Positions 32,975 to 62,936 of a DNA stretch of 64,000 nt are shown piece by piece. Both the position numbers and the translations under genes were made by a program. The notes beneath the pieces are model-generated. The model saw only the letters and a program-made list of their open reading frames with translations, ran no database searches and was not told where the DNA came from. How positions within the stretch are numbered: position 1 is the stretch's first letter; every line of letters begins with the position of its first letter. This DNA comes from Plumapathes pennacea (taxonomy: Eukaryota > Cnidaria > Anthozoa > Antipatharia > Myriopathidae), in contig OZ038464.1 in assembly GCA_964036295.1 (NCBI GenBank), positions 20,287,443 through 20,351,442 of the forward strand. The letters are read 5' to 3'.

Positions 32975-35183
32975 TCAAGTATTTTGCTGGTGGTTACTGG
33001 GTTGAGGTTTATTTTTATTCAAAGGAAATTGAATTGTTGACTTTTGCCGTCTGTGATATGGATCAGCGTCGTCATCTTCTTCGTCATCTCCGTCGTCGTC
33101 ATGGTCGGACGCCTCTTCGTCCCTGTCTTCCGGGTATACATCTGGCGGGACGGGACCCTCTTCTTCATCGTCATCTTGATCCCGATCCCAGTCCGGACCT
33201 TGTTCCTCGTCTTGACCTTGATCTTGATACGATGCAGGATCTAAATCGTCTACTCGTTCAGGGTTTTGTGGATTTCTTGCGTTGAATGGCATTGAAGGCC
33301 TATAAAAGCGGCTCAAGAATGGCTGAAACGAAGCTAAGGGGTTGTTCATTTGCATAATTGACGACAAATCAGGTGGATAGGCAGCTTGCGTATCTAAACC
33401 TGTATTGCCCATCGCTGGTTGCGACATCAATGCCTGTTGCACGGTCCCTCGAGACTGGCTTTGTGTGTTAAAATAATCTGCCATGCTCTGCATCTGGTTT
33501 TGTTCCTGTTGAAGCATTTGTCTTGGATTATTGGCGTTGAATCCCTCAACCCCAGGGAGGGGTGAAGTCAGGTCAGCGGCTGATTCCGACGGGCTCATCA
33601 TCCCTGCAGGGCTCTCAGAGCCACTGGGGGCATTCCAACTCTGTGCGCCGTACAGGCTTTCGCCGTTTTTAGTGTCCATTGGTAGACCTTTCATTTGATT
33701 GAAGAACTGATTTAGTTCCATTCGACTCGCCCATTTGCCGTCATCATCAGCGGATACAGAGGCGGATAAAGGTTGAATTGCCAAAGTACCCGACTCATCA
33801 TTCAAATCCTTCTGTCTATCACTCTTGTTATAATCATAAACATGATGAGAGGAAAACTTCTTAGCCATCTCATTGTGTACTTTACGAATAGGCTTTCGTC
33901 TTGTACGTTGCCCATCGCTGTGTTCAACGACTATTGCTTTATCTTTCGCTTGATGAAGTTTCTTATCATTTACATCCAGCGCTAGGGTTTTCTTTTTTCG
34001 TTGTATTATACGGTGTATCAACTTACGAACATCCTTAAACAACTTGTTTCTGGAAGATTCCAATTTTTCTTGAGTACTGAGCGTCTTGTTATTTGATACA
34101 TTAACCGAGCCTTTGTGAGACAGTACGTCGGACAGTGTTCCGTTGTGCATCTTTTTCTTTAGATTATCGACCGCTTTCAGAGCCTGCAGTCGAAGTAAAT
34201 GAATGACAGATTGAACGCCTTGATCTTTCATATGTTCTACATGTGGTTGTTTCATTTTAACTTTGTGAGTGCTGTCAACATCAAGATCTCCTCTCTGAAA
34301 TGAATCCATAAGTTGACGAATTCGTTTGTCTTTGATAACTTGAACCCCCGACAGCACCTTAAGTTGTTCGGGATTCTTCACAACTACATTTTTTCTAGAA
34401 CTATGTCGTGGATCGTTCGGTGGTGTCAATGAAGTTTTCTCGATGATGTGGGTGGAATCCGGCTTCGAGGAGGTGCGGTGCTGTTTACACAAATCAGTGC
34501 TTGAATCACTCCGCCCTTCTTTCTCTTCATGTTTACACGAACTGTGCGGCAGCTTCTCGATCTGCACCTGAGACGCTAAAATGTGTGAAATATTGACAAT
34601 AAATGACATGGAATGCCCGTAACCCTTTCACTACCAAGGGTGACTGATTTGACTCCACCTTGCCAAAGCTTTCGTCAAATGAAAACTGAAACTGGAATAA
34701 AGACTTCTGTGAACTAGAGGCCCTGTTTAATTCTTGTTGCCATTTTTGCCCTGGCTCCTGGCTTCTCCAATCAGTAAATATATTGTAAATGGTGAACAAG
34801 CAACTTCAAACCGGTTCATGTAGAGTTCAAGTGTCCCCGCTATTCCTTACCCTCTGCCATTGTAAGCCCGACTGCACGTAAACAATTCCCCACAGGAGTT
34901 GTTTAGTTTCCTGTTTAATGACCATTGAATCTGCAGCCGGATTGGTTGCCACAGCAAATCCCTAATATAATTTACATTCCTTTCGACGATCGTTACAGAC
35001 ATCAAACTTGGCATGCAAGACCAGCATTACATATTATAAACCATCTTGCCATTATATTGACGAGAAATGGCGACATTTTGTGACCAGCAAAGATGACCAG
35101 TAGTGTGAAGTGTATTGCTTACCAGTTGTTTTGCCGGTAGTCAGGAGAAAGCAAGCCACAAGAGTGACAACAGACAACTGCAT
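32975..35183 (-). CDS. Gene A: secreted disordered protein with acidic C-terminal tail
   Basis: Exon 1 (35123-35183) encodes the signal peptide MQLSVVTLVACFLLTTG; after a 547-bp phase-1 intron, exon 2 (32975-34575) encodes the rest, 553 residues in all. Residues about 85-290 are Lys/Arg-rich with short leucine helices (SVIHLLRLQALKAVDNLKKK, KLFKDVRKLIHRIIQRKKK). About 340-450 is rich in Gln, Met, Ser and Asn (GMMSPSESA, NPRQMLQQEQNQMQSMA). Residues 476-525 are strongly acidic (over 25 Asp/Glu, including DHDDDGDDEEDDDAD), then a basic tail. No known domain was found. The acidic tail could bind calcium, as in acidic skeletal-matrix proteins, but that is inference. It is divergent to gene B (start codons 1.05 kb apart) and is the only member of the cluster on the minus strand. 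Confidence 0.85.
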
Positions 35184-36235: not shown

Positions 36236-37498
36236 ATGCTCGTCGTGGCCTGGTGCGTACTTGTACTCGCTGCTGCAGTGACAAAGGCCAGCGGTAAGTA
36301 GCTTGAATAGAAATAAAAAAAATTGGCAACGCTTCTTCCTTTGGAACTTATATTTTGTTTCACAATATTTGCTTTTGATTTTCTCATTAGCGTTTTCTTG
36401 ATAGGTTAGTCATGTATTGCTTAGCGTTATTATATTGAAAGTTGACTTTTCTTTAAATTCAGTTTTAAGGTTTGCGAGAAGTAAAGATCCTACCAACCTA
36501 ATGACCAAAAAACAAACAACCAACAACAACATCAACGACGGTGCCCTGCATCACGTGAAAAAACTTGGGACCAATGAAATAGAAGGTCTGTTGCAAGACT
36601 TGGACCAACAAACGACGGCCACAGAAGACGCCGAAGAAATCGGTTCAGATTTGCTCAGTGGAAGATTGATAAAAGAACTCGCCATTAAGGAGGAGATTGA
36701 GGAAGAGGAAAAGCAAAACTTGACTGGTTAGTCCATGCAAACGTTGAACACAATTTTGAATTTGTTTTGGGACCTTTAGGGCCAAGGAATTAGTTTTACA
36801 AGATATAGTAGAGGTAATTTATCATTTCAAGACGCAAAAAAGATCAGCATTAGAAATTAATGCAAGTGACTCGACCCCGCCAGGACTCGAACCTGGAATC
36901 TTCTGATCCGAAGTCAGACGCCTTATCCATTAGGCCACGAGGCCAAACACGAAAGTTTCAACACCATGTATCAGTCCAGTTATTAGACACACTATAATCT
37001 AATCTGGCTTTCTTGCAACTGCAACAGGTTCAGATATGTTGATAGATTAATCGTCAGCAGTCCAGACTTAAAAGCTAGCTTGTTCGTTTTAAGAAAGCGA
37101 AGCAATAATACATTCTAAATATGTCAAGCTACTGCCAACGTTTTGGATCACTATATGAAAATATCCCGTTGAATTCTGGCGAAGACAAGCTAATAAATTA
37201 GTTCCCTCTTTTAGTACAAACCATAATGCACCCGCTATCTTCACGTTCCTCATTGCGATGTTGTATTTCAGACATAAGCTCGCGTGTCACACCAGACCTT
37301 CCTCCGCCGCCCATGCTCAAAGATGATTCTGGAACGCCCGGCAAGACAACAGCCAGGGAGAGCGGCATAAGTTACCTGACAGGCGAACCTGTGTGGATAG
37401 AAAGTCGGGAACTTCAAACTTACTCTGGCTCTGGCAAGCACGAGAGATTCATGTTTTATCCAGTCACTATTGACAATGAGAACGGCCTCAGCTCATAA
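36236..37498 (+). CDS. Gene B: small secreted protein, three coding exons
   Basis: Exons 36236-36293, 36463-36726 and 37272-37498 join in frame to 182 residues; both introns are phase 1. Exon 1 gives the signal peptide MLVVAWCVLVLAAAVTKAS. Exon 2 is polar, with a stretch of alternating Leu and acidic residues (EIEGLLQDLDQQ, IKELAIKEEIEEEEKQN) likely to form a charged helix. Exon 3 contains DLPPPPML, SGISYLTGEPVW and KHERFMFYPVTIDNENGLSS. It is the smallest cluster member and the only one with a second coding intron, which carries a tRNA-Arg gene on the other strand. No domain recognised. AATAAA at 37968-37973 may end the transcript. Confidence 0.75.
36872..36944 (-). tRNA. tRNA-Arg (anticodon TCG)
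   Basis: The minus strand gives a complete 73-nt cloverleaf: acceptor GGCCTCG pairing with CGGGGTC (two G-U pairs), D-arm TGGCCTAATGGATAAGGC, anticodon arm TCTGA-CTTCGGA-TCAGA with anticodon TCG, and T-arm CCAGG-TTCGAGT-CCTGG. A-box and B-box (GGTTCGAGTCC) are intact. It lies antisense inside the second coding intron of gene B. Confidence 0.92.
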
Positions 37499-38418: not shown

Positions 38419-39991
38419 ATGAGAGCTCGAGTTCTTCTCGTGTGGATTTTAGGTGCCATTCTCATGACTCCAGGTAAAGTCGTCTTTAATTGTGCGTTTC
38501 GTGTTTACATTGCATGCGCGCACCTCACGACAGACTGACTGATAAACATTGCTTCTCAAAGGTCATCTTACTCGAGGCAAAGTATACAACATACGGCGTT
38601 TAGTACATATCCGGAATCACCCAAAGCTAGACCCAACAGATGAGAAGTCACCCACTCGGAAAAGCATACTTTTTGACGTAGTCAACAAACAAGACCTTCA
38701 AACTGGAATATATGATAGCATGGGTAGAGTTCCCTGGAAGAGCTATAACAGCGATGAGGAGAGAAATGCCCAAGGCAACGTGGAAAAGTCTCTGGAAGAA
38801 ATAACGCAGTTGTATAAGAAACTGTACAATGACGTGAAAATAAATGGGCGAAAACTCAGCTCTTTGAAAGCACAGAACGTAATTCAAACAGACAGCAAGA
38901 GTCTGAGTAGCATCGAGCCCTTGTCTGAAGCAGACGACGTGGTACAAATTAATGCTAAAGGCGGAAATGTGAAAGTTCTTCCGGTAAACTTTGCTCCACT
39001 CCAATTCGTTCAATCAAGAACTAACTCTTTGTCGTATGGTCGAGAACCTTCAGCTGGGCCACCGATTAATTTACAAACGTCAAGTAATAGTCCTCTGGGT
39101 GCTCAGTCAATTCTTCAAATGGATGATAGTGCTGATAATCCCACGAAATCTTTCCAAGAAATTGAAGAGATAATAAAGAGTGATAAAAACAACAACCCGA
39201 TCGCAGTACAGCTGCCTTTGAGTCGGCAGACTGACGTTATTGATGCTCAGCAACAATCACTTGAGCAAAAAGATGCTACTGATATCAATCAACAGGTTTC
39301 CGAACCCAAACTAATGGCATTCCAAAGCATGTCCAATGCATTTCCTAACATTCTAAGAAATGAACCAGGCAAAGTCGTAGATATCGGCCAACAAGCTCTG
39401 GTGGAGGAAAACACAGAACGAACTCCGCGCCTGAATCCCGGCAGTGTCGTACAAAATGTGTTAGGAAATAATGTTAACATCGATCAACAGCAGTTGTATC
39501 CAGTACAAGACCAGCTATTATTGGCGACAGGAAACACTGGCGCAGATAAAGAGGTACTTCAGGGCCGAGTGGGGACTCTACAAGACAGTGCTGTCACAGG
39601 GTCACAAGATATGTCCCAGGAAGGTCTGGAGAGTCGCGACGCCCAGTTTCTACTCAATCACCGAGATGGTACAAACGAAGCCATGAGCCCGCCCTCTTTA
39701 AACTGGACCGCTGACGCGGGACAAACCCAGGATGCTTTGCGGAACGTCTTCAATGCTATAAATGGAGTGAAACCATTAGGTAGTCAGTTTAATGACATTG
39801 TAACTAATCCTTATTCAAGAGGTTCTCTTTACAAAGGAGGCCACCGTCCACTAAAACACGACCACAAAAAAGGAGATATGTCGCACTTTCCAAAATATTT
39901 AAGAGAAAATGGAAAGTCGAAAATGCAGCCGCCTCATGAGGCGAGAACAAACTATAATTCTACTCAGAAAATAGTGCCGTTGCCTACTTAA
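38419..39991 (+). CDS. Gene C: secreted disordered protein, paralogue of gene D
   Basis: Exon 1 (38419-38473) encodes the signal peptide MRARVLLVWILGAILMTP; an 88-bp phase-1 intron (shortest of the cluster) precedes exon 2 (38562-39991); 494 residues. Near the N-terminus, SPTRKSILFDVV (48-59), DSMGRV (70-75), then YKKLYNDVKINGRKLSSLKA (103-122) and VVQINAKGGNVKVLPV recur in gene D in the same order. The remainder is rich in Gln, Asn and Ser with repeated (D/N)IxQQ pieces (TDVIDAQQQSLEQ, DINQQVSEP, VDIGQQALVE, NVNIDQQQLYP). The tail holds GGHRPLKHDHKKGD. No Cys in the mature part, so no disulfide folding. A likely 5' UTR acceptor (ttctttgctgcag) lies at 38378-38392. Confidence 0.85.
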
Positions 39992-40665: not shown

Positions 40666-42022
40666 ATGGACGTCAGGATAATAATCTTTCTTGTGTGGAT
40701 TCCGTGCGTTGCCTCTCTGATAAAAGGTAATATCGGTGTTGGAGTTCAAAATTTTCTTTTTTATGTCAGTTCTTTCATATCCCTATTATTACGAAATGTT
40801 ACAATTCCTGGAATGTATATATGTCGGATGTGTGTTTCTGGGCTGGAGCTGAAAGTGGACTAATAAGCGTGTACCGTAAAGTATTTACGGCATCGCTAGA
40901 GTTTCGAAGCCCAATGAATTAGAACAAGAAAAGATAATCATTCCAACTGCCTCAGTGGCCGCAAGACGTATCGTTCAACTTGTTTATAGGGCTAATGGCT
41001 TCACCTTATGTGTTAAACTATTTTCTCTTTGATTTCTTAATATTTATTTAGCACACTCTGCACTTGAATTTTCCATTGAGAAAAAAGTCAACGAAACACC
41101 ACCGGAACAAGAGAGGCAACCAAGAGCTCAATTAAACTTGAAAAAGGAAGCATCGAACCAGAAAACACCAACACGGAAACAAATGTCCTTCAATGAAGTC
41201 GACCAAAATATGCTCAGAGTATCAGAGCAGGAGAACACCAATCAAGCAGCCGATAATCTTGATGCTCAAAGTGACGGAGCTGCTGGATTGAACAGCGATA
41301 CGATGGGTCGGGTACAATCCTTTTACGACGAACTCACCAACAAAATGAGACGAAATGGACACAAGTTTGATCCTTCTAAAGCTCTTCACTTGAGTCAGTC
41401 GGATGACGGGAAGCTGCGGCTGATGCAGCCTTATGGCAACTCTCAAGAAACGCTTGGAAATGGATTGAAAAACCAGAAGTCGCTACCATTCCAGATCAGC
41501 TTCGGTGAACAAGGAGATCTCGCAGTGCCTATCGGGAAGATAAACACTCAGACAGACAGCAACATGGCTACTCAGCAGACTCAACAGAATAACGGTATCA
41601 ACATGAACCAGCAGGATTTGGCGAGCCCTGGAATGTTGGAGAATGTCATGTTTGATGGTTTAACGTCAGTACAAGGAGGAAGCTCGCGGCCTGGAAGCTC
41701 ACAAAATGTGTTTGGAGCGGGCGCCGGATTTGGTGGGATGGGATTTCAAGGGAATACCTTGAACACAGCTTCGACAGCAGCAATGAAGAGAGAGGGGGCT
41801 TTGATTTCTCAACATCACGGAATTTCAAATGATTATGGCTCATTTAGAATGCCTGCCAATTTTGTCGGAAGAGCTGGAGTTATCACAAAGGTTCGGGGAA
41901 CAACCTCAGAAAGGCGAAAATTTGCAATGGCTAAGGACCCATTGCACCAGAAAGGACATAAGCGTAAAACGCATTTTACTTCAAGAGAGAAAATATTTAC
42001 TGCTGTGACACAGAAAACGTAG
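40666..42022 (+). CDS. Gene D: secreted disordered protein, paralogue of gene C
   Basis: Exon 1 (40666-40726) encodes the signal peptide MDVRIIIFLVWIPCVASLIK; after a 325-bp phase-1 intron, exon 2 is 41052-42022; 343 residues. TPTRKQMSFNEVDQ (59-72), DTMGRV (103-108) and SFYDELTNKMRRNGHKFDPS (110-129) followed by KAL match gene C in order and spacing, and FQISFGEQGDLAVPI parallels the C segment VQINAKGGNVKVLPV. The middle is rich in Gln, Asn and Met (ATQQTQQNNGINMNQQ) and then Gly (FGAGAGFGGMGF). The frame ends TQKT-TAG, but the same frame stays open for another 62 codons of basic sequence. AATAAA at 42317-42322 may end the mRNA. Confidence 0.85.
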
Positions 42023-43165: not shown

Positions 43166-45699
43166 ATGATCTTTCGAGGCATTTGTATTTTGGCGTCATG
43201 GCTATTGGTAGTGGCTTCCTCACAAAATAAGGGTATGATGTTTGACTGCCCAGCATTGAATAATAATACATCTTTTTATATTTCTATGCATGTTTGCTTA
43301 TGAGTAAAGTTATCGGTGATTTGTTTGCCCGTGCATTGCGCTCGCCAGGAGTGACATACACATTCAACTGAAGGCTCCGCTTCGAGAGATTTTGACAGTA
43401 ATAATGAGACTTCCGTTAAATGTGTCTCTGTTGGACGTATATAACTACAATAAATATCAAGAGACACATGACTAAAGCCATCCTTTCTTGTCAACAAACT
43501 TACACTGGTTTCTGTTTCTGTTTCTTGCTTTATAGTTTTAATCAAAGCTACGCATTTTGATTATAGGAATTCTAAGTACTTCTAAGTACTTCGACGATCC
43601 TTTTCACTGTCATTCCAGCCTGTCCGCAGTTCATAATGTTATGTGCGTTAACATATATATAAATCATATCTGTACTCATTGATGATTACTTTCTAATTCC
43701 AGATGAAGAATCCAGTCCTGCAACAGGAGTGCAACGACAATTTATAGGATCTCAAGCTTTTGGACAAAACCCCTTCTCACAGGCCGCTCCATTTTCCATG
43801 CCCTCGAATGGAATGAACCCAATTGGAGGAATAAATGGCCCCCAACCGAACGTAAACCAGATGCAACTTCTTGCTGCGATGCAAAAAGACCCCCGAATGA
43901 GGCAGCAAATGTCAGGATTACTGCAACAGATGGGAGGGGGTGGTGGGGGTATCGGTCAGCCATTCGGCGAGAACAATTTCCGTAACGAAGAGAGCACACT
44001 CATGCAGAACCCAATCACCGCCCCGGACGGACTCACAAAAGATGTTTTGAAAAGTCTGATGTTCGGCAATGTGGGTGAACTGTCCCCTCCTTATGGCAAT
44101 AGAATGGGATATCCATCAAATGACATGATTAATTCATTTTCCAATGGACCACCCAACCCACCAGATCCCAGGAAACTCGGAAGCTTAATCAATAGCTTTA
44201 CGAATCGTCAGCCGGGATCTGAAAGTTTTCCGACGTTCCCAAAATTTAATTTTGGTGGACAAGATCAGTCTCACGAAGAATCTGTGTTACATGCGAGGCA
44301 TCACCACAACCATGGACACTTAAAGAAACGAAAGTCCGATACTGTCACCAAACTTCTTCTTTCCCTGCTAGTTGACAAGTTGAAAGATATATACGAGATT
44401 GACAAGTTCAATACCTCTCACCTCGCACGAAAACAGAACCTTCAGAACCTTGAGACTACTGGAAAAATCGGCAATGACCTGCATTCTGTTAGTGACCATG
44501 GAAAGAATGAAACACACGAGGCAGCCGATCAAAGAGATCAGCAAAGGAAAGGCGCATTCCAAACAAATTTGACTTTCCCCTTAACGGTTTCGGACCCGAA
44601 GTCAACTGGTGTTCAGTTAATCGATTCTGCGAAGAAAGGAGTGAAGAACGACAAAAGTAATTTTGAAGTGGACAGCGCTTCCATTGATAAAATCATAAAA
44701 GGAATCGAGGCCAACCAAACAATGAAACTGAGCCCAATTCTCTCGAAACCTGTGGTCAAAACTGGAGTAAACAGAGACCTTAAAGAGATCAACAATATCG
44801 ACGCTGGAAGTTCAACTTCAGACGTAGAAACCGCAGAGAAAAGCACCAAGGTTTTGGGTAGTGAGGATTTTATAAAGAACCCTGATACCGGCAGCTTTGC
44901 TGAGTTCCATACGATCAAAATGCCACTCGAGTCAGAAAATCAAAATGACAGCGAGTCAGCTCTGGATGATAAACTCGTAAAAGTAGAGGATGCTAAGACT
45001 TTGGCGCCTTTGGATGAAAATGGAGTCGAAAACATCACAAGTTTGCCAAGCTTTTCAGTTTCATCATTCCTTAACAAAGATAAGTTGCAAAGTGTCCAAG
45101 CTACAGACAGAGTTTTGACGCCAGACATGCAGTCATCTCAAGGCATCTCCTCCTCGACTGAACTCGACTCGGCACCAAACGATCTTTCCAGCAAATTCGG
45201 AGACACCTCGGAATCAAGAAAACAGGGGACTGAGAACTACCTGGAGGCGTCGAGGGTTCTTGGGTCAGTTTATAACAAGGTGCAGGATCCTCTGGCTAAG
45301 AAGAGTGTAGAAACGGCTATCAAAGCCATGCTCAAGTTGATCGGATCTGATTCTTCGTATTCCAAGAAGGGAAACGTGCCATCTCCTGAAAGTGGCAAAA
45401 GTGCAACAAATTATGAACAGGGGCAGATTGGCCTAGACAGGTCTTTCAATGCATTTGTTGCGAGACAAGACGGTGGCGTTAAGAAAGCAAGGAAGGTGAA
45501 AGCAGCGACCTTTCCTTTCAAAACATTCAATATCCGCAAAGCAGAACAAAGGTCGCGAAAAAAGATGAATACTCGATCAAAGTTTAAAGAATCCCAAACA
45601 AAGCAGCTAAATCACTTAAGAAAAGGAAGAATATGCAAATGCAAGAAAGAACTGGCAAGAATATTAAAACGCAAAAGAAAGTCCACAAGCAGATCGTAA
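43166..45699 (+). CDS. Gene E: secreted disordered protein with basic tail
   Basis: Exon 1 (43166-43232) encodes the signal peptide MIFRGICILASWLLVVASSQ; a 470-bp phase-1 intron leads to exon 2 (43703-45699); 687 residues. The mature N-terminus is rich in Gln, Met, Pro and Gly (NQMQLLAAMQKDPRMRQQM, then a run of six Gly). A His-rich basic patch (ARHHHNHGHLKKRK, about 219-232) precedes a leucine helix (TKLLLSLLVDKLKDIYEIDK). A long Ser/Asp/Lys-rich linker follows. The last about 90 residues are strongly basic (VKKARKVKAATFPFKTF, CKCKKELARILKRKRKSTSR), with the only two Cys of the mature protein as CKC. No known domain was recognised. Tandem basic sites (LKKRK, KRKR) could be cleaved by furin-type proteases, so the mature product may be fragments. 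AATAAA follows at 45778-45783. Confidence 0.87.
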
Positions 45700-45777
45700 A
45701 CCTTTACGTTCAATGATACAAATTCTCCTCATACATGAAGAGACAGCATAGGTGACACAAGTGAGGATTCAAAAAAT

Positions 45778-45783
45778 AATAAA
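45778..45783 (+). terminator. Candidate poly(A) signal of gene E
   Basis: AATAAA lies 79 bp after the gene E stop, within aaaataataaagtcg. It is the first canonical signal downstream and gives a short 3' UTR. Confidence 0.55.
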
Positions 45784-45952
45784 GTCGAACTCGAAATATT
45801 GTTAAAGTTTCGAGTTTACTCAGACTATAATCTTTAATACCTCGGCAATTTCATTTGTAACACTCGATCAACTATCTGAGGACAATTAGCACCTTTCGCA
45901 CTGTATACTAAACCGTTTTGTTCATTAAATATTTAAAACATAAATTGTACTG

Positions 45953-46078
45953 GTGTGTGTGGCGGGAGTTATCAGGAATGTACAAAATTGTGTTCAGTGT
46001 TCGCTTGTGCCCGTATCTGTGTGTATGTGCATGTGTGTGTGTTTCCTCTTGTGTCTTGTGATGTGTCCCAGCCTGTGT
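45953..46078. repeat. GT-rich low-complexity tract
   Basis: Imperfect tgtg runs (tgtgtgtggc, gtgtgtatgtgcatgtgtgtgtgt) followed by degenerate tgtgtct and tgatgtgtcc words. It is intergenic, 3' of gene E, and probably a decayed (TG)n microsatellite. Confidence 0.7.
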
Positions 46079-46664
46079 CTATGGATTAACATACGGGCCA
46101 AGCTCAGGTGTTGACAATGATGTGCGGCAATCTCTTAAAAATTCTCAGCCACCGCGCTCTGATTGATTTGTGATTCGCCCGTAGGGATCCCGGTGGGTGT
46201 TTGTTTGCAAGATGACAATCGCACCGAGCCCTCCCCCATTGAGTGCGTTTTCCTCACACAGGCGCGGTGGCTGAGCGCACTCCAACAAAATGGCGGTTTG
46301 TAATGGAAACTAACGAGCCCGCCGTTTGGCCGATTCTTGGAATCCAATTAATATCGTTGGGTTGACTGATGTGCTCGTCGAACTGTTTATGAAGATCCGA
46401 CCTTCTGAATGAATCGAGCTTTGAGCGAGACCTTCGATGCCGCAGAGGTAAACCAGTCAAGTAAGAGACACCGGTATGTTCAATCTCTATCTTATTTGTT
46501 AAAACCCTTGTTTTGCGGTCGAGTTTTAGTTTAAAAAAACTAATCAGCAGTGCGAGGAAACGTCGCATCGTGCATCGCCTCTTGCAAAACCAAAGCTATC
46601 ACACGATTACTTTCGGCAGCCCATAAAACGATCACTTGTATGCAATCCTATTCTCTCAAGGCAG

Positions 46665-46736
46665 TCCCACATGGTCTAGCGGTTAGGATTCCTGGTTTTC
46701 ACCCAGGCGGCCCGGGTTCGACTCCCGGTGTGGGAA
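46665..46736 (+). tRNA. tRNA-Glu (anticodon TTC)
   Basis: A complete 72-nt cloverleaf: acceptor TCCCACA with TGTGGGA, D-arm TGGTCTAGCGGTTAGGA, anticodon arm CCTGG-TTTTCAC-CCAGG (anticodon TTC), T-arm CCCGG-GTTCGACT-CCCGG. The A-box and B-box (GGTTCGACTCC) are intact, and a T run (cttttttt) follows at 46752-46759 as a polymerase III terminator. Confidence 0.95.
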
Positions 46737-47526
46737 CTCGCTCAAATCTCGTCTTTTTTTATTAAGGATTATCCGGCCTTTTGTTTGTTATGAAGAAAAT
46801 TTGAGCTTTGAGCTAGAACCGCTCGAAACCATGGAGGAAAACCTGGCTCAAATGGCCCAAAATCCCGCCCAGAGGTTAGTATCTTCGAACTCAATTTTAT
46901 TTGTTAAAAACCCTTGTTTTGTGATCTAGCGAAATTCTCCATACTTCCGTTATTTGCTCTGAAACCTCACTAGTTATACGCAACCACACATATCTGCATA
47001 ATGATTATCAACACCTAAGCTTGGACCGCGTGTGATGTATATGGATAAGTCTCACTCGGGCTGTGCCTTTAAGGCATAATATGTTATGTATCAGTCTATT
47101 CATTCCAGCTTCAATTAGTGTTCGTCGTGTACAAGTACACGTCCAGGTTTATACTCGTATCAGAGAGCGGTTTTCGTATGACAGTCTTGTAAAACCAAAT
47201 TCAAAGTAATTACATCGAAAATCAGAGAGGCTGTAGCTTAAACACTTTTAGTCAATCAAAATGTAAAGTATGTAGTTATGTTTTACTTTGAAGAAGAAAC
47301 CAATCAGCAGTGCGAGGAAACGCCGTCACCAACACTTGCTTGCTTACGCGAGAAAATCCGCAATCGAGTTTTGCATGCACTTTATTCCTGTTGCGGCGAG
47401 AATGCTGCCAAACTTGTCTAGACAAATCTAGCAAATGCAAAACCAAAGCAATCACACGACTACTTTCGAGGGTCATCGGAAAACCGCTTTACATGTCCAA
47501 TAATCAGTCCACTTCTCTCAAGACAG

Positions 47527-47598
47527 TCCCATATGGTCTAGCGGTTAGGATTCCTGGTTTTCACCCATGCGGCCCGGGTTCGACTCCCGGTGTGGGAA
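47527..47598 (+). tRNA. Second tRNA-Glu (TTC) copy, slightly degenerate
   Basis: It differs from the copy at 46665 at two positions. Acceptor position 6 is now T (TCCCATA), giving a G-U pair, and the anticodon stem 3' strand is CCATG instead of CCAGG, giving one C-T mismatch. The anticodon TTC, A-box and B-box are retained and a T run follows (attttttttt at 47612-47621). It could be functional or an early pseudogene. Confidence 0.8.
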
Positions 47599-47763
47599 CT
47601 TGCTTGATCTCCATATTTTTTTTAAAATGCTCTTTTCCGTGTCATCATGGCGAAACATGGTTTCATGGTCCATAGCTGCCGGACAACAAAGTTAGACTAA
47701 ATGACGTTTGATACTTCTACTTAGTAACTTCAGATACTCCATGGCAAATGGTTTGAACCCAGG

Positions 47764-47882
47764 AGTGTGAACAGAGTCACTTGACTCTGAAGATGACTTC
47801 CGCTCAGGTAGTCGAAACGTCAGTCACCAACAAGTCTTTCTGGAGACTACTCTAACCCGGACGCGGATCACAACCAACCTAC
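47764..47882 (+). repeat. Dispersed retroposon-like repeat
   Basis: The sequence contains 'gactctgaagatgacttccg', ctcaggtagtcgaaacgtcagtc and 'ctaacccggacgcggatcac'. The tcgaaacgtcag core is shared with the fragments at 18060 and 4505. I recall these phrases as widespread in coral and anemone genomes. No coding potential. Confidence 0.5.
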
Positions 47883-48907
47883 TGTTCAGATACTCCAACC
47901 GTTTAGTTCTCTACTTTTTAATTTCAAACAGTGCCACTTGTAATAACTGATGCAGTTGAGTAACGACGCCAGTCAATAGTTCTTATACGTGACTAATGCT
48001 GTGATACCACTACCTCTGCTACGATCAGCGATAAATGGAAGATGTACCCCAGAAGATATTCTACTTGGTAAACGCCGTTGTTTAAAGATACTAACTGAAC
48101 GCACCAAGTGTTTGGTTAAGTACGAATCGAACAAGACAAAACAAGCAATGCATATCTAATGAGCAGGTGCCTTACATCATCGCGTCAGGAAACCTTTCGC
48201 TTAAACTCATCGGGTCTTTTCGTTTCGAACTAAAATGGAGAAATCTGCATATAGGACAAGTGAATAGACATCAGATGTTCCTGGACTGCGAGCATGCAGT
48301 AAATCTGTACCCGGCCTACCGAGACCAGAGGTATGTAGGATCTGTTTATGTCAGTTGGATTTTGTTTATCACGAGAACAGAAAACAAGAGACCATCATAT
48401 AACGACAAAATTTGAGGAAGCAAAATCCTTTAGTGAATCATGACACTCCCGACTTACCTCTATAATACTATACTAATTGTCATGATTGTGTCATTCTACA
48501 AAGTCTTAATTGTTGGTTTTCTTAGAGTTTTGAAGAGAGGTTTATGTCACTTATTGTTATAATTAAGATTTAATTGTCTATCCCTTATACTCTACTCTGC
48601 TCTTATTTTTTTTTCTACCTTTCTTTTACCCGCACAGTTTTAGAGAGAATGTAACAGTGATTCTCTGCCGCACTTCTTGTAAAGTGATACCTACATTGTT
48701 TCCTTGCCCATCTTGAGGACTCTCCAGTTAATTGATCCCTTTCAGAGGAGGTGTGGAAATACAGGTACGCCATGAGATAGATTCAGTCTATACTTGAACA
48801 AAAGGTGCTATTACGTTTTACTCCCTAACGCAGTATGAGTTTATACTGTACTTCGAATATATCAAAGAATCTAATACTACTTTTTTTCTCTTATAGTCAC
48901 CTTTGGA
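47883..48907. other. Intergenic region upstream of gene F
   Basis: It is AT-rich with no gene recognised. 'tttttttctcttatag' at 48882-48897 is a good acceptor 10 bp before the gene F ATG, so this stretch probably holds the gene F promoter, a non-coding first exon and a 5' UTR intron. Confidence 0.4.
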
Positions 48908-51139
48908 ATGAAGCTGCTAACAGCTTTTGTCCTTTTGATCATTTTATTAATAAGCAACGCGTCCGCAGGTAAGTCACGGCAAAGTTCGCAGACAACGAAT
49001 TGTCCGACTAAAGAATTGTCACAATAGTGAATCACTTTCGTGTTCCATTGATTTCATGATCATACAGCCGGCTTCATCGTATTTACTGCCCACGATAAAA
49101 TAAGTTAAAGGTTGTAAGAATGTACACACAGCGCACACTTTCTTTTTCTGACGCTTTGAATTGTTTGGAAAAGAAGCAGGAATATAGCAGTATACGAGAC
49201 ATTTTCAAGGGACTGTAAAATCATACATTTTGAATATAACCTTCGTCACTGTACATATGGGAGGAGACAGCATTACTATTATCGCCAGTCTCATCAGTAT
49301 GCGTGGCTTATAGCTGCAGTAATACAAAACAGCAACGATAGCAGTCAGTAGACCAGTAATACGTAGTTTCATTAATGTATATTGTATTGTCTTGATTCAG
49401 GTCGGAAGGAAATATACGGAAAACAACCTCTTTCATTTGGCAAGCTATCAGCAGATGCAAAACATGACGACACGGTCCATAGTACTTCAAAACACGGAAA
49501 CCATAGTATCCGTTTATCGATAATAGAAGATCTCACTAAACTGAAGGAAGAAGAGGACATGCAAGCCTCAGAGGAGAGGAGCGAACAGAAGGAAGGTTCT
49601 GTAGATGTTGGGAGTGGATCAGGAGACAAACCGACCTCAGAGCGAAACAACAAGGCCTTGTCACCCAAGCACAACAGAACGAATACAAGCAAAGAGGACG
49701 TTAAGATTTTACTTTGTAAATTCATGAAGCTTATGGCTGAAGCGAAAGGAAGTTGTAAAAAAAACCACCAAGTCAAGAAGGCAATGATTTGGCCAAAGAA
49801 GATGCTTCCAATGCTGGAAAAGATGTTGGGAAACAAAGATGGCGGGAGTAATTCCGAGAGCTCACATGTGCCATTCGCAGATGACGGTGGCGAAGATGAT
49901 AGGCCAACGTCACGACTGGACGGAAATGGATTTAATGATAACTGGGACAGCGCTGGTGGAAACACGGACCTTGTGGGATTACATCATAAACGTCGCAAAC
50001 GAAAAATGCGCCGTCTCCTGAAGATGTTGAAAACAATGCTGAATGGTCGTGGAGTTGGAGGGAATTGGGACGATGACTCAACGAGTGATTATGGCGTACT
50101 CAGAAAGGGGACTTCTAACTATTTGTTACTGAAACAGCTCTTAAACCAGATGCTCGGGGGAACGGACAGAAAAGGCGTCCTTCGTGAAATGTTGGAAGAG
50201 TTCGTCAACGCTAACGGAGTTGAACGGAACGGTGAGGAGGCTCACGAAGCGTTAGACGAGTTGATGGGAAGAAAAAGCCTCTTCCAGTTGAACGACATGT
50301 TCCAAAACCCAGAGCAGAATATGGGCATGATGTCTCCCATTGCGCAGTCAGAATCAATGGCCTCTATGTCTCAAGGCGGCGCCCAATCGCAGGCTGGTAC
50401 TGATGGAATGATTCACGCCCAAATGCTGTCCAACGGTGCAATAGCTCCGATGCCAAATCCCGCAGCTTTGCAGCAAACGTCTCCTCTCCGTCAATCGATG
50501 AATACTCGATTACCAGGACAAGCACAAGGTCGGGGCCTATTGATAAACCCAGCTCTCCCTGAAATGCTTCCGCGTCCTGTGTTGGCGGCGAATCCGCGAA
50601 TGTACATGGGGTTAAATCAGAGAGTAGCAAACCAAAACGTGTTCCAGCAGCGACAGCTAGCCAACGAACAGCTACGTCAAATTAAAGCCGCGGAAGAGCG
50701 AGGAATTGAGGAGAATATGAGTGACGACGTAGTGAATGATACTCCACAACGCGACAGTTATAGTTTTCAGCCGCAATCGACGAGAGCAGGGTTTTCAGAT
50801 ACTGGAGTCATGGACGAGCGTGCTCTGGGTCTAAGACCCTCTTTCCGATCAGTAGAACAAGCATCGATCATTTCCAGCGTGACTCGGCCTGAAATAGAGG
50901 ATAGTCTCCAACAGCAGCCGACCGTTCGGAGCACAAGTAACCGCTTGGAGGCGTCGCAGTTCTATGCCAATCATAATGGCTTGACTGCGGCGCTTGAGAA
51001 CGACTCTCTGCTTCGACGCATTGGTGCCTTCAGGAGGGGGAAGGTTCTGAAAGGACAGAACTCAAGAAAGGGACTTACAAAAGCGTCTCCCAAATCTCAA
51101 ACCGTCAAGGGCTTGTCTAAGTTAAAAACTTTCAAGTAA
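48908..51139 (+). CDS. Gene F: secreted Met/Gln-rich protein with basic helical core
   Basis: Exon 1 (48908-48968) encodes the signal peptide MKLLTAFVLLIILLISNASA; a 432-bp phase-1 intron leads to exon 2 (49401-51139); 599 residues. Residues about 22-110 are charged and Ser-rich. A Cys-containing helix (VKILLCKFMKLMAEAKGSC) follows. At 214-226 LHHKRRKRKMRRL forms a His/basic patch with a furin-type RRKR, running directly into leucine-methionine helices (LLKMLKTMLNG, LLLKQLLNQMLGG, VLREMLEEFVNA). Residues about 300-430 are rich in Met, Gln, Asn and Pro (NMGMMSPIAQSESMASMSQG, NPRMYMGLNQRVANQN); GMMSP recurs in gene A, and NPRxM/DPRMR in A and E. The C-terminus is basic (RRGKVLKGQNSRKGLTK). No known domain. 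It may be a structural or adhesive secreted protein, or a precursor. Confidence 0.87.
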
Positions 51140-52688: not shown

Positions 52689-55600
52689 ATGAACGCCGCA
52701 GTTTATTTCGGAGTGAAACTACTGAGCACTGTTTCAATCCTTTTAGTGGACATCCAAGGTAAGGGATCTTGCGACACACTCACTCAGACACGAAAATAGA
52801 ACCAGAATAAACCACCTCGATTGTCATCCCTGCTTCTTCCAGTGATCTAAAACTACGCAAACTGTATGTTTAGGTATACAGTAATGATATATTACACACA
52901 ATTTGACAGTAACAAGACGTTGGTTTCGGTCTTACAAGTTAAACATTGGACACAAGTTATCATTATTTTGTTCCAGACTAGCCGCTGGGGATTAGGATTT
53001 TAGCCTTGCATCAACAAGAAGGAACATATTTCTTTTGTTGTGATGTAATCTTTTAGCTGAGTCGCATTCTGTAATACTAGTGGTAATGTTGTGGATAGGT
53101 TCGCACCTGCACGTTTTGTAAATAACATCCTGTCCAATAAGATATTAAACAAGTGAGTTAAAACTACGAACACTTTGACCATACCCACACAGAAATGTTA
53201 CTATTGCTGGTTAAATTTATTTGACTAAACAAGATACTGGCAATACACAAATTGAAATAATCAAGCAAGATATATCGTTTTGGTAGCGTTAAAGCACTCG
53301 TATAGTTGCGGTTCTAATCAGCAATGCTATTACTGGGTTATAATAATGCTTCAACCTGTTAAACATTGTAATGATATCTGTCTCAGGTCTTGAGGGAAGA
53401 CTTCATGGCTTGGAGAGGCAAGGTGACGTCGTTTTGGGGTCTAAAGGCTTTGCTGGTACTTTGCAGTTCCCTGTGAAACGATCTTCAAAGCATCGCGTAG
53501 TTCATAATTTTGAGTGGAAAAGAGGCGAACTCAAGCGAAGAACACTCAGACCAACGAACGAAGTCCTCTTGGTGAACGCGTCAGAGGAGCCGAGAACACG
53601 TGACGCGAGCGGCGAGTCTCACGGACCGCGGATGGTGGATGTTGCTTCGCATTTGTTGACTGACTACGGCATTATGGGTGTTTCAGGGGAAGAAGATAGT
53701 GCCAAGTGGGCTGCTGACCAGATGCAAAATTCCACCGAAGGCTCAAAGGAACTAAATGGAAATTCAGTTGACACTGCTGAATCGAAACTGCTAAAAAACG
53801 ACACCGTGCCTCAATACCAATCAAGCACTTTGCAAGCGAGTAATTTTACTTCAGCTATCCAGGGCAATACTTCTGAAAATGGCCACATGACAAATCTTCT
53901 CAAGAATTTAACATTGAATATTCAAAGAGGGTTGAATAAATCACTGGACCGGCAGGCAAATCAAAGTCTAATTCGAAACCAGACCAAGCTAGCTGCAGAG
54001 CCAAAGTCCAATCATAGTGATGGTGAAAGTAATGGGAACGGTTCTCTTGTTGTAAACTTCGAATCTCTGAGACCAAACCAAACTTTCCAGCTTGCATTTC
54101 CTACCAATTCAAGTGCTGCCAGTTTTAGCAACAGAAATTTAACGTTTTCAGCAAATAAGGGAGTAGAAGATATCAGCCAAGAGACGTCGGGTTTGCTGGG
54201 GGATACTGAGCCAGAAAATGACATCAATTCGCTGGACAGAACTAACGGCAGTACTAACGTGATTGTTACAACTGTGGAGGATATAAGTTCTAATAATACT
54301 GGAAGCAAACCAAACAACGATAGGATTCCGAGCGAGGCGTTAAATTTGCAAGGACAAAGCCGTGAACTTCAGAACTCTACAGGCACTGAGAAAGCTAAGC
54401 TTGAAGTTTATGACGACGAAAGTCTGGCGAAGGCTTTGACGGACACTTCTGTATCGTCCATAATTTTCTCAAACAAAAGCCTGAGTCCTGATAATTATAT
54501 TCTTGCAGGTGAAGGTCAAAAGAAGAGCACACTACAAGGGGAGCAGAGAAAAATGAGAAAACGTCCGAAAGATGAACACGAACGCAATGCAGTGAGAAAA
54601 TATTTTAAAGCTAAAATATTTTCTACGAATGAACGCCAAAAACTCACTCTTGATTCCCTAAGTCACATGTTGAGCAAAAAGAACAGCGTGGTACAACCTC
54701 CAGATACTATGATAAGGCCTGTACAACCTCCTGATACCACGGTAACCCATATACAGCCTCCTGAACTAACTCAAGTGTCAAAGAATGTTTCCATATCCAA
54801 TACAGAACACATATTTACGAATGGCGAACAAAACTTGAAAGAAAATGACAGCTCTCACCAGATGAAGGCTCAATCTAATAACACAGCCCAAGTACTTTCC
54901 ACAAGTAGTCCTAGCAGTTATGGAGCTGACGATAAGCAGGGAAACGCCCTTTCTGCAGCGCCAACACACAAATTCCAGAATTATCAAGCACCATCAGATG
55001 CTGCTGTTTTGCATTCCACATCAAATGACGTGAAAAAGAATGAAAATCGAATTGTACCGTCAGCAGATCCTTATCAGGGTTCACGCAAATACAATCACGA
55101 GTTTCTCAACAATGTTGTTTCTGGTAATAAGCATGAAAACGTTACGACCAGTGTACTGATTCAAGATGACTCCGGGAGAACTGTTTATCAAGGTGCAGTC
55201 GACATTTTTAAAGCGAGAAATGATGTTTCAAACATCAACAGCGAAGAAAATCAAGCCGTTCCTAGTATCGCATTTATACCCAATGAAAAATATCAAAATA
55301 GTCATGAGACCTCATTTCCAGAGGTTGAAGTTGCCGGACAGAATGAAATGACAAGTAGAATGCCGCCCGATGCCAAATTTCACAAGGAAGTATCCAATCC
55401 ATATGAAAGTATACCAAGCAATACTATTTCCAACCCTTTCGCAAAAACACAAGGACACGATTCAACTTTACAACAAGACGTCAATTACAAACTCACGAGG
55501 AACTCTTCATCGCATGGGATGCCGCAACAGTTAGTGGATAACGAATCACAAGAACTGAACACAGAACCCAGCGCCGGCAAAACGTCTGATCACAGACCAC

Positions 55601-57408
55601 TTTCTGAACCACATCAGCAACTAAGCATGGAATCTGTGGAAAAGCCTAAAGAAACAAACGATTACGATTCCCGACAGCAAACAAGCTTTGAACCTCCTCT
55701 TCAGCAGCAACAAAACGTGGAACTTGTGCAAAAACCCAAAGAAACAAATGATCAGTATGATCCTCGACAGCAACCAACCTTTCAACCTCTTCAACAGCAA
55801 CAAATTGATAACTTGCCACAAAACATGCAACAAGAAACTAGATACCCAGACGATGGGGAACCACAGGATGAGCGCCCACTTTACGAAGATGACAATTCTA
55901 ATTTCAAAGAGGATGTTTTTCATATCGTTCTGCACAACAGTAACAAGATGATTAGAAATCCACATGAACATATGACCCTTACAATCTCTGGACCACTACC
56001 AACCGGCGTAGAGGTGCCTGAAAAGATCGACGGACTAAAACCTAGTTTTCAGGTTAATACTGAAAATGTCCAAACTCATCAAAACACTGATCAGCTTGAC
56101 AAGGTGGTTGCTGAGGACAACGGTTTCTCTGGTAACAGTACAAATAATGGGTTTCTAAAGACAAACAAAAACACTGAAATGAATCATTCTGACGATCATG
56201 TTCAAATAAACCAAGAGAATGCAAGAGAAGACGGTAGGAAGGAAACGTCGAACCAGACCAGCTCGGAGAATGCAGGAAACGTTATTCAAGGAAAACTGAG
56301 TAAAAATAATTCAAACAATGACCAAAACAAACAGGAGGTTGAGCAGTCAATAAATGGAAGCCATGTCCAGGAAGATGTAATTATAAACTCGCCCCTTGAC
56401 CAAAATTCAACTTCGTTTGCTCAAACAAATGAAAAATCCAGCTCAAACATGTTGGTTAAGGAGACTGATCGTGCTACTGCTTCACTCTCGCCAGTGAATG
56501 GACTCGCGTCGAATGACGACATTGCTGCCATGGAGGGTCCGAGGAGGAGTGGAGGCGTACCGACTGCTAATCTAGCAAGTCAGAAGTTGGACTGTCATGT
56601 CGGCTCACAACCTGAGCAGTTATCACTTACCATCCTCACGTGTCGCAAAAAGAAGTTCGATTCAAATACTCCCCAAGCATTCAAGCCAACTTACTACTAT
56701 CCACAGGCAGATGAAGGCCTCAAACCTTCCAGGAAAACGCAAGAGCGAGTTCCACGTCTTGATGAGGTACTTAATGTACTCAACCAAGACACCAAAGAAT
56801 CATTAAACAAAGAGATGATGATGGAAGGGAAAAGTATTGAAAACATGCTACAAGGATTCGCAAACCCAACAGTCACCATGTACGATTCATCAGATGTTGG
56901 TACCGATGACGATTCTCCTGTGTTTAACTGGATTCCAGAGGGTCATAAGAGGAATTCTGATGACGGCTTCGCCAGGGTCCCTTGGGAGATGGGCATGAAA
57001 AGTACAGCCCTTTGGGATCCTGAACACCAAATCATGCTTCCAAATTCTCTCTTAAAGAATTACTGGCGCCACCTAAGACGCGCACCACATCGACACCATC
57101 GGCATCGATTTCCTTGGGCACCTGTCCACGAGAGCCATAGAAGATTCTGGGGCTTTCATCCAGAGGTACCGCTGGAAGGCTACGGACACTTTATACCATC
57201 CTGGGCTCCAAGTCGGATTTGGTCCCATCCTAGGCACGCCTTCCATCAGGAGAACGCCAGCAAGAGAACCTCTTTGTTTAATAACATTCTGAAAGGTGAC
57301 AGAGACAACTGTCGTCCTCATGCAGGAGGGCTGCACTCGCACATGGGAGAGTGGGAATATCTTGGAAGAGTTCTGTGTAGCTGTCCATTTGGTGTTGGAG
57401 AGTGGTGA
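52689..57408 (+). CDS. Gene G: giant secreted Asn/Gln/Ser-rich glycoprotein-like protein
   Basis: Exon 1 (52689-52758) encodes a signal peptide (MNAAVYFGVKLLSTVSILLV); a 628-bp phase-1 intron leads to a 4-kb exon (53387-57408); 1363 residues, the largest of the cluster. Dozens of NxS/T sequons (dense at about 135-390) predict heavy N-glycosylation. It has short internal repeats: three QPPD/QPPE units (about 457-480), and a 28-residue repeat carrying KPKETND, then RQQ, then LQQQQ (about 772-830). Near the C-terminus are a CHVGSQ...LTILTCRKKK pair of Cys and a Trp/His/Arg-rich block (about 1245-1315: LRRAPHRHHRHRFPW, RRFWGFHPEVPLEGYGHF). It ends with a small Cys-containing tail (NCRPHAGGLHSHMGEW, LCSCPFGVGEW). 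No known domain was recognised. The conserved-looking aromatic/His tail is the best candidate for a folded functional module. Confidence 0.87.
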
Positions 57409-59774: not shown

Positions 59775-59783
59775 TATAAATAG
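59775..59783 (+). promoter_or_regulatory. Candidate TATA box of gene H
   Basis: TATAAATAG lies 244 bp upstream of the gene H ATG, and TATAAAG at 59892 is a weaker alternative. The first would give a 5' UTR of about 215 nt. Motif evidence only. Confidence 0.3.
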
Positions 59784-60026: not shown

Positions 60027-62936
60027 ATGATTGTTCTTGTACTTTTCTTGGCGCTGCTCGTACAGCTTACATGCGCCACTCATTCAGGTAACATCATTAT
60101 ACAAGCATTATATAACTCAAACCTGGCTGGGAGGCGAGCGGGCTATTTGTATTTTGTCAAAATCTGCTACAGTGGGGGGAGTTTATTCAGAGATGAGCTG
60201 CCGTAACGTACCTAAGCTTGATTTGTATTCGCATAAACTTTAGGTTGCTACATTACACGTTTTCTTTAGAAATGAAAGCTAGTTCTCACAGGACTGTAGT
60301 TTGGAGAAGAAATTTGTTCATCTTTTTACAGAAGACCACGAGATTGAACACAGTCCTTTCTTATCTTAGGTAATTTTTTTAAATCTTAGATCCTAAAACC
60401 AATGTGATGCACTGCCTGCATGCGGCTTATTCTCTACTGGGTAACTTTTTTTAAACGTTGACTTTCACTAGGATGGAATCTGCCAAAACGAAATTCCAAG
60501 AAGAGTTTCTTGGAAGATGCTATGAAAGCAATGGATGGCATTGAAAGCTTGACTAAACCACAAAGAATACCTCCAAGGGTTATCAAAGTCCTCATTGGGC
60601 CAGAGCATGTAAGGTACCACAGACATCGTCACCGTCACCATCATCATCACCACTTTTTTAACCGGAACGGGCACTTCAGCTTTCCACCAAGACCGACCAG
60701 GCCACACATTAATACAGTAAAAGGGAGCGACCGCGAGAAGAACAGAACAAGTAAACTGATCCATAATGCGGCATTCTTGAGACAAGCAGTTCGGTTGCTA
60801 GTAGACATAAAGAAAAAACTAAACAGCTCCAGTGTCAAGAAGGCGAAAGAAACTCACTTGAAGAGGAATACGACGAGTGAGAGACCTGAGGTTGGTGCGC
60901 TGACTGAGTACTCAATTTCTATGCTTCCAGAAATACGGAGCATTGTGCAGCGAGATAAGGACAACACCGGACAATCCAGGGCTGCGTTCGCAAAAGCCAG
61001 ACAAATCATCGACAAAAAACAATCTCTGGTTCATCCAGCTGCACCGCCCATCACGGAGAGAGTTCAAAACAACACAAATATTACGAAAGAAGCTAAGATA
61101 TCCTCCGCAGTTGCTGTTCTTGAGGACGCGGTACAAAAGGCAGCACAGTTTCACACGGCAAAAGCTGTCCGCCAGGGAACTGATACGACAGGAAAAGCAA
61201 AGGCACCTGAAGGACAGAATCAACGAGCGAAAAGCATGGATACTTCCGGTATGAATACTACGGTGAATCATCGAACTTTACTTAGTGTGCTGGAAAGTAT
61301 TAAACGGAATCTCACTCGCCGAGAAGGCGAATTTGTTGCAAAGTTCGGGAGGGTTATAACGCACCTGCGATCTTTGTCTAACAACATTTCCAGTGCTACG
61401 ACAAATGCCACAGCACGAACCAAACAAGCGCTAATTGGGAAATCTAAAGAAAGTGCTGAGATATCGACGAACAAAACATTGTTGGACATCAAGGAAAAAC
61501 CCGCTAATCAGAGCGGGTCTGTTTTGAAGGAAGTCGTAAGTAAGAACAAAAGCAACAATAGCAAGACTGCGGTCGTCAAGCAACACACTGAAACCCAAAA
61601 TGAATTACTTCAGTATAAAAATGTGGCATCTGGCCACGGCAACGGACTTGTTTATCATAATAAATCGGTTGTTAAAGAACATGAGAACAACAACAACAAC
61701 AACAATAACAGGACAACGGCCCTTGATAATTACGCCGAATCTTTGGCTAACGTTCTTCAGCATAAATCTATGGCATCAAATCAGAGTTCTAAACTTGTCT
61801 CTCAGAATGGATCTGTTGTGAAAGACCCTAACAACAACAGCAGCAGCAGCAGCAACAATAACAACAACAGGACTACGGCCCTTAAGCATCTCGCGGAATC
61901 CTTGACGAAAATTCTTCAGCATACATCTATAACATCAAACAACAGCAATGCCACATGGCAAAATGCGAAAAACCCTAAAGTTGTTACTGGCGAAGCTAAG
62001 TATCTGTTGGCCTCCGAACCGCAAGAGAATCACACGACAGTTCCAAAGCTGCCAAAACAGCGCCTTGCTTCTCGCAAAGCGTTTGGTTTGGCGATGAAGC
62101 TGGTCAAGGCCGCCCTAGCACGAGAAGAACTACGCAAAGCAGAGAAAGAACTCTTTAGCAAAATGAGCGAAATGATGAACAAGACCGCGGGAACTGTCAA
62201 CGCAAACCAAGGGTCGATACAATCGGAGAAATCCCCACAAGACGCGAGCAACCTAAGCGCAGATTCAAACAGTAACAATAACCCAGTTAGTGCTGGAGGG
62301 GCGCCAAATGCGGCAACATCCACAGCAAAGAACAAAAAGCAAGATTCAGAGTCTCAAGAGAAGTACAATGAAGCGGCTCACCTTGAGGAGAAGATTGCAG
62401 CTCAACAGGATAAAATGTATGATGACCTGGTGAACCACATTCTTGACAATGACGATGGCGACGAAGATGAAGAAGGATATGAAGAAGGGACAACACGAGA
62501 GCTATCTCGCCAGCAAAACGAAGATTACGGGGACTTTAAGGACAGCGACGAAGAGATGAATGAACGTGCTTATGGCTCAAAAATGGGTGATACAAGTAGA
62601 TACACCTTGCGCGATAAAGTGCTTAAGCCAAAAACAATCTCAAGTTCTGTTCAAAGCCGAGGTGAAGAACACAAGATCAATAAGGTAATGAATACCCGGA
62701 AGAGCAAAAGACCTAAAACTGTGAAGAAGCGACACAAGGGAAATATTCATGGAGCAGAAACTTCGGCTGATTACGGAACAATTCACATTCAAGAAGACTT
62801 ATTTCAAAACAGTAAGAAAAGAAATTACCATCCATTGCAGTCCAAGCAGCAAAAAGGGGAAAAGATAAGGGCTAGGAAAAATACTACACCACAGAAACTA
62901 AAATTTACTACAAAAAGATCCAAATTAGATACGTAA
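60027..62936 (+). CDS. Gene H: secreted Asn/Lys-rich repeat protein with poly-His patch
   Basis: Exon 1 (60027-60087) encodes the signal peptide MIVLVLFLALLVQLTCATHS; a 384-bp phase-1 intron leads to exon 2 (60472-62936); 841 residues. At about 67-81 is RYHRHRHRHHHHHHFF, the strongest His patch of the cluster. Basic leucine helices follow (FLRQAVRLLVDIKKKLN, LLSVLESIKRNL, RVITHLRSL), separated by Ser/Thr/Asn linkers with many NxS/T sequons. Residues about 400-515 contain two full and one partial copy of a repeat of about 50 residues with poly-Asn tracts. The C-terminal third has an Ala/Lys helix (RKAFGLAMKLVKAALAREEL), an acidic stretch (DNDDGDEDEEGYEEG) and a Lys/Arg-rich end (KQQKGEKIRARKNTTPQKLK). 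No Cys was found outside the signal peptide. It could bind metal through His and act as a structural extracellular protein; inference only. Confidence 0.87.
61603..61950 (+). repeat. In-frame coding repeat with AAC/AGC microsatellites in gene H
   Basis: Repeat starts are at about 61603 (LLQYKNVASG), 61750 (NVLQHKSMAS) and 61908 (KILQHTSITS), a period of about 147-158 bp. Each full copy continues to a VVK(E/D) motif, a poly-Asn or Ser/Asn run and RTTAL..(Y/L)AESL. The (AAC)n tracts at 61686-61712 and (AAC/AGC)n at 61831-61868 differ in length between copies and are expected to vary between individuals. Confidence 0.88.

Follow-up and report, generated by a model that had tools for sequence, protein, structure and literature searches.

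A physical cluster of genes for secreted, disorder-biased proteins in an apparent black coral genome, tentatively linked to the horny axial skeleton

Central to this work is a physical cluster of genes, named A to H, for secreted, disorder-biased proteins without known domains, whose existence is supported by the sequence of a 64,000-nucleotide stretch of contig C3 (the window, in which position x equals C3:20,287,442+x). The initial annotation had let a cluster of eight end at H, because the window ended there and not because of any biological border. With 60 kb of upstream and 100 kb of downstream sequence of C3 added to the window, a minimum of five further genes of this kind (IJ, K, L, M and N) came to light, the last reaching 113,012 in window numbering, so that the cluster holds at least 13 genes over about 80 kb, from 32,975 to 113,012. 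The best explanation at hand, to be taken as tentative, is that their products are secreted into a matrix hardened by catechol chemistry, which in part is probably the axial skeleton of a black coral. The cluster thereby constitutes a concrete sequence list of candidates for black coral skeletal proteins.

The models of A to H were rebuilt from the DNA, each with GT donors and AG acceptors and a single open frame, and their signal-peptide leaders, called by eye together with a hydropathy rule, are predictions from sequence. Rebuilding confirmed the eight models as they had been proposed, with a signal exon of 55-70 nucleotides (nt) that a GT/AG intron in phase 1 separates from a single long exon poor in Cys, B having one exon more. 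Taken in order from A to H, the first coding exons measure 61, 58, 55, 61, 67, 61, 70 and 61 nt, the products are 553, 182, 494, 343, 687, 599, 1363 and 841 amino acids (aa) long, and the mature chains hold 2, 0, 0, 0, 2, 2, 5 and 0 Cys, in agreement with the earlier remark that Cys is almost absent (0-5 after the leader). All nine introns, the second of B included, are in phase 1.

Gene A lies on the minus strand and genes B to H on the plus strand. The signal-peptide exon of A (35123..35183, 61 nt, with a phase-1 donor) is joined to a second exon (32975..34575) that encodes a basic part, a Q/M-rich part, an acidic part and a basic tail, while B consists of a signal-peptide exon (36236..36293), a second exon of phase 1-1 (36463..36726) and a third that includes the stop (37272..37498). 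The paralogues C and D have their signal-peptide exons at 38419..38473 and 40666..40726 and their long exons at 38562..39991 and 41052..42022, respectively. The signal-peptide exon of E (43166..43232) precedes an exon (43703..45699) with a His patch of 6 per 12 residues and a basic tail, and the two exons of F lie at 48908..48968 (signal peptide) and 49401..51139. After its signal-peptide exon (52689..52758), the second exon of G (53387..57408) runs to 1,340 residues with a His/Trp-rich C-terminal part, and in H the corresponding exons are found at 60027..60087 and 60472..62936, the latter with 9 His per 12 residues near its N end.

The claim that no unrelated protein gene lies within A to H also held, the only extra open reading frame (ORF) of at least 150 aa being a 203-aa antisense frame inside F, in a list that genes made of short exons alone could escape. 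Transfer RNA (tRNA) genes do occur in the stretch, at 36871-36945 (-), 46665-46737 (+) and 47527-47599 (+). The latter two, both tRNA-Glu, fall in the interval between E and F (window 45700-48900), and their surroundings, alike by eye, suggest a small local duplication.

Beyond H, a tandem satellite whose repeat unit measures about 348 bp extends over about 14 kb (62950 to about 77000) and parts it from IJ, a gene of four exons (77035-77092, 78224-79069, 79427-79513 and 80367-81289) with every intron in phase 1 and a layout of basic part, Glu/Ala/Pro linker, Gly/Met-rich part and acidic part. The model of K is partial: it comprises a signal exon (87059-87113) and a Gly/Ser/Met-rich part near 89976-90700, with further exons at the ORFs at 88588 and 89175 and an end placed by eye at a donor. 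L, on the minus strand (105681-105606, 105218-104650), and M, on the plus strand (106912-106993, 107569-108056), form a divergent pair of similar composition, with 10-11% His, 6-7% Tyr, 12-13% Pro and 10-12% Gly. Gene N (110659-110716, 111545-112444 and 112774-113012) encodes 398 aa and ends in a C-terminal TSP1 domain (PF00090, E 2e-11). In K and N, phase 1 of the first intron was a condition of the search and hence gives no independent evidence of phase, and exon 1 of L and of M was chosen from an all-phase search after the phase-1 search had yielded nothing convincing. The freedom from intervening genes seen in A to H does not carry over to the larger cluster, in which an MFSD6-like frame (by eye) and a class C G-protein-coupled-receptor-like ectodomain sit among K to N.

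How far this crowding exceeds chance can be judged from ORFs of 140 aa or more that are poor in Cys and biased to disorder: these make up 11 of 19 in the 80 kb of the cluster (32.9-113.0k), 2 of 34 in the flanking 144 kb and none of 9 in 64 kb taken from contigs C1, C2 and C5. The binomial P of 3e-5 for enrichment in the cluster is flattering, since its borders were picked post hoc, and the ORF of M and the Gly-rich ORF of K fell outside the ORF class as defined. In a scan for a signal exon with a matching acceptor, 12 of the 14 Cys-poor ORFs within the cluster and 2 of the 6 outside it gave a phase-1 hit, as against one inside and one outside in phase 0 and none in phase 2; the scan is rough, with some false hits, some that picked up the signal exon of an adjacent gene, and gene C missed.

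Disorder was gauged by the mean TOP-IDP score and by charge-hydropathy. The former spans 0.127-0.179 in A to H and 0.10-0.18 in all 13 cluster proteins; of eight neighbouring ORFs that serve as controls, seven lie at -0.01 to 0.08 and one, which encodes a His-rich protein at 127664, reaches 0.15. Charge-hydropathy classes A to H and IJ as disordered, with C close to the boundary. The description of A to H as low-complexity proteins had to be given up, as a SEG-like test marks 0-6% of their windows and biased composition is the more fitting term; K (32%) and IJ (14%) are the exceptions in the set of 13. His patches, also noted earlier, exceed shuffled sequences in E, G and H and not in the other members of A to H, and do so in IJ as well. 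It was correctly foreseen that no known domain would be recognised in A to H: Pfam gave no family over its cut-off for A and C to H or for the exons of B, and NCBIfam gave none for A and C to H. Pfam was equally silent for the exons of IJ, two exons of K, and L and M, and sequence searches of the PDB with E, G and L found no match.

The nature of the host bears on what such proteins could build. The mitochondrial genome, located by a COX1 match, is contig C24 of 17,711 bp; its ribosomal RNAs were taken from Rfam and its tRNAs from ARAGORN, and the other genes were named by reading translations. The order is nad5 5', nad1, nad3, nad5 3', trnW, nad2, rns, cob, trnM, rnl, cox3, cox1, nad4L, cox2, nad4, nad6, atp8, atp6, and cox1 is interrupted by a 250-codon ORF between its two exons, which by eye is of the LAGLIDADG type. 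A nad5 intron that holds nad1 and nad3 alone is described for Actiniaria, Antipatharia or Zoantharia (PMC10261974; here and below, papers are cited for the passages concerned). In sea anemones rns is followed by cox2, and in the black coral Chrysopathes by cob (PMC6890759), so that the cob after rns found here rules out a sea anemone. A zoantharian is less likely, the tabulated ones having one tRNA and about 21 kb, against two tRNAs and 17,711 bp here (PMC10261974). The mitochondrial genome of Myriopathes ulex is likewise 17,711 bp (PMC10980879; PMC12129002), and a homing endonuclease in its cox1 is reported in one of these papers (PMC10980879) and absent according to the other (PMC12129002). 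Overall, gene order, tRNA content and size make a strong case that the host is a black coral, and Myriopathes is its likely genus. A search for the GFP family as a further guide to the species gave no match, in the genome or in its control. A role in a stony-coral mineral matrix, which was also considered, was set aside: with a host that appears to be a black coral, a mineral matrix becomes unlikely, and an organic skeleton remains a candidate.

The tough skeleton of black corals contains chitin, a halogen-containing scleroprotein (antipathin) and diphenols, with 3,4-dihydroxyphenylalanine (DOPA) as a likely source of the catechol signal (PMC7344944). In the scheme that we favour, one epithelium would secrete the cluster proteins together; the His/basic-rich E, G, H, L and M, the Gly/Met-rich IJ and K and the acidic blocks of A and IJ would condense into a protein-rich phase; this phase would infiltrate chitin; and secreted tyrosinases would make or oxidise catechols that cross-link the proteins into part of the horny axial skeleton. 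The genome holds 29 exon-level tyrosinase matches, with arrays on C12 (five in about 28 kb, one with an internal stop) and C7 (seven in about 64 kb) and the rest on C4, C9, C6 and C1; in one of the C12 copies the translation looks like that of a tyrosinase and includes a hydrophobic segment close to the start. A bolder form of this proposal, which we regard as rather doubtful, is that the cluster represents a black coral skeleton locus, in which no fewer than 13 disordered proteins restricted to this lineage would phase-separate, infiltrate chitin and be hardened by tyrosinases whose number has expanded; such a system would have evolved separately from those of squid beak, insect cuticle and the mineral matrix of stony corals, and would give antipathin its protein identity. 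If a skeletal role is true, an early-branching animal group would have invented on its own a chitin-protein skeleton that draws on disordered proteins; if it is false, the locus is still a compact cluster of secreted genes without known relatives, useful for understanding how such clusters arise.

Several observations weigh against a skeletal role. There is no tyrosinase match on C3, and the link to tyrosinases is therefore one of genome and not of locus. Chitin synthase gave two partial matches only, one with internal stops, in a search whose family control also matched in 4 of 14 bacteria and archaea. By charge-hydropathy, K, L, M and N fall on the ordered side, where TOP-IDP is the one measure that indicates disorder, and the second measure thus supports 9 of the 13 proteins. 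None of the 13 carries the GHGxY repeats of the disordered His-rich proteins of squid beak (HBPs). Most members of A to H are rich in S/N/Q/K/L and show no Gly/His/Tyr bias of the sort that a hard scleroprotein might show, and the sequon-rich G and H would also suit mucus or mesoglea.

These last two points speak at the same time for the alternative that ranks close behind an organic-skeleton matrix, namely that the gene products have no connection with the axial skeleton and belong to mucus, mesoglea or gland cells, where these disordered and partly heavily glycosylated proteins would form a hydrated gel. Though on balance unlikely, it can point to N-glycosylation sequons in excess of shuffles in G (31 vs 19.4) and H (26 vs 12.4) and to the TSP1 domain of N, which is common in extracellular matrix. 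Against it, sequon enrichment at P below 0.05 is confined to 3 of the 13 proteins (G, H and IJ), mucin-type Ser/Thr/Pro repeats were not seen by eye, and Pfam detects no gel-forming domain in A to H, IJ, K (two exons), L and M.

A further alternative, improbable in our view, is that there is no functional set at all, and that unrelated secreted genes lie together and owe their common exon plan to the general phase-1 bias. Its strength lies in the alignments, which also limit the initial proposal that A to H were born by tandem duplication: this stands for C and D only, the other 27 of 28 pairs being without clear homology. When the 28 pairs of A to H were aligned locally against shuffles that keep local composition, C-D alone stood out, with a score of 112 and a shuffle maximum of 79. 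Among 13 proteins (78 pairs, 120 shuffles each; N was compared without its last exon), C-D (z score 7.7) and A-IJ (z 3.1) exceeded all shuffles and the remaining 76 pairs failed to do so. A and IJ have their blocks in a similar order, from a basic part through Met/Gln and acidic parts to a basic tail, and the pair is suggestive but within the range of chance, because about 0.6 such results are expected over 78 pairs. For C-D, BLASTP gives E 2e-7 with 25% identity over 159 columns, local BLASTP being preferred since MAFFT misplaced the N-terminal part; the two are clearly homologous and by sequence real tandem duplicates. Homology of L and M is possible: their alignment score was reached by 3 of 120 shuffles, and a C-terminal motif (P 0.0025) fails correction for 55 pairs (11 proteins, all but K and N), with H-L (0.0045) and C-IJ (0.0055) near it.

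Other searches added little to these pairs. A search for ungapped 22-residue motifs with 20 shuffles per pair placed C-D, C-L and A-B above all shuffles, where about four of 78 pairs are expected by chance. The tblastn search of the 13 proteins against the region linked C and D alone, and blastn of gene against gene linked no pair. Five of the 13 proteins, C, F, G, H and L, were searched against the genome and each matched itself alone, which here means no close copy, as the search with C missed D and that with L missed M. In animals generally, phase-1 introns are over-represented where signal peptides are cleaved (PMC1626468), which is why the shared exon plan is weak evidence of common descent. 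What tells against a chance gathering of unrelated genes is that 11 Cys-poor, disorder-biased ORFs in 80 kb, as opposed to two in 208 kb, are hard to obtain without a shared cause, even with borders chosen post hoc, and that C and D are true duplicates, as L and M possibly are. Growth of the cluster may have come from local duplications that then diverged very fast or from the recruitment of unrelated secreted genes to the site, and for most members the data are indifferent between the two.

Two remaining alternatives concern more specialised secretions. It is quite improbable that the genes encode capsule, tubule or matrix proteins of the nematocyst (cnida): secreted, basic and fast-evolving proteins are plausible as capsule content, where cnidarian-specific genes are common, but nematocyst capsule walls are disulphide-linked and the cluster proteins have almost no Cys, and the longest Gly-x-y run in A to H is 9 residues (27 in IJ, inside its Gly/Met-rich part). 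Least probable of all are neuropeptide or antimicrobial peptide precursors cut at dibasic sites, for although dibasic pairs exceed shuffles in D (P 0.019), E (P 0.010) and G (P 0.025), some such excess is expected by chance among 13 proteins, amidation-type G[KR][KR] sites stay at chance level (0-2 per protein), Tandem Repeats Finder reports a single 90-bp repeat in A to H (in G; H has a few degenerate repeats by eye), and no repeated peptide set was seen between dibasic sites.

The surroundings of the cluster hold genes of other kinds. An MFSD6-like transporter lies at window 22219-24030 (-), assigned to MFS_1_like by Pfam (2.7e-87), and further MFSD6-like copies, recognised by eye from the ORF list, occur at 92647, 114563, 117914, 120769, 123312 and 132882/135303 in window numbering, so that such copies sit on both flanks of the secreted-protein cluster and within it. 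A discoidin-domain-receptor-like gene (window 16064-19083, +), with F5/8 type C and DDR1-2 DS-like domains, has a frame that ends 83 residues past the likely membrane span and is apparently without a kinase unless spliced differently. At 127664-131671 (window numbering), a frame of 1,336 residues has a middle rich in His/Lys and, at its C-terminal end, a GDSL lipase domain (PF13472, 6.7e-14); judged by eye, it may also include a membrane span.

Finally, the cluster invites comparison with known systems of secreted structural proteins. The SCPP genes of vertebrates (enamel, milk, saliva) are clustered and encode secreted, disordered, fast-diverging proteins with the signal peptide on a separate exon; their introns are in phase 0, SxE phosphorylation sites are enriched, and the family descends from SPARC/SPARCL1. 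The likeness to SCPP genes drawn in the initial annotation is sound in that A to H are clustered, secreted, disordered and Cys-poor, and fails on intron phase, which is 1 here, and on SxE sites, of which the 13 proteins have 43 vs 36.3 in shuffles (P 0.14). Moreover, SCPP genes have many small exons, in contrast to the few giant exons here, and the skeleton of the host group is non-mineral. The galaxins and calcarins of stony coral and sponge are, like the cluster proteins, secreted and mostly domain-less, and these skeletal proteins too have neighbouring duplicates (PMC12419799); they differ by their di-cysteine repeats, CC being found in none of the 13 cluster proteins.

In squid beak, disordered His-rich proteins phase-separate, and chitin infiltration followed by cross-linking is the model of the authors (PMC6884462). 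L and M resemble these HBPs in being rich in His/Gly/Pro/Tyr and poor in Cys, and the proposed host material likewise combines chitin, protein and catechol; the likeness is one of composition, and L and M are not classed as disordered by charge-hydropathy. For antipathin, no amino-acid sequence was found among the open-access literature matches listed. The comparison with this black coral scleroprotein is one of setting: the cluster appears to come from the right group of organisms, its predicted secreted proteins would be open to catechol cross-linking, and arrays of tyrosinase genes are present in the same genome.

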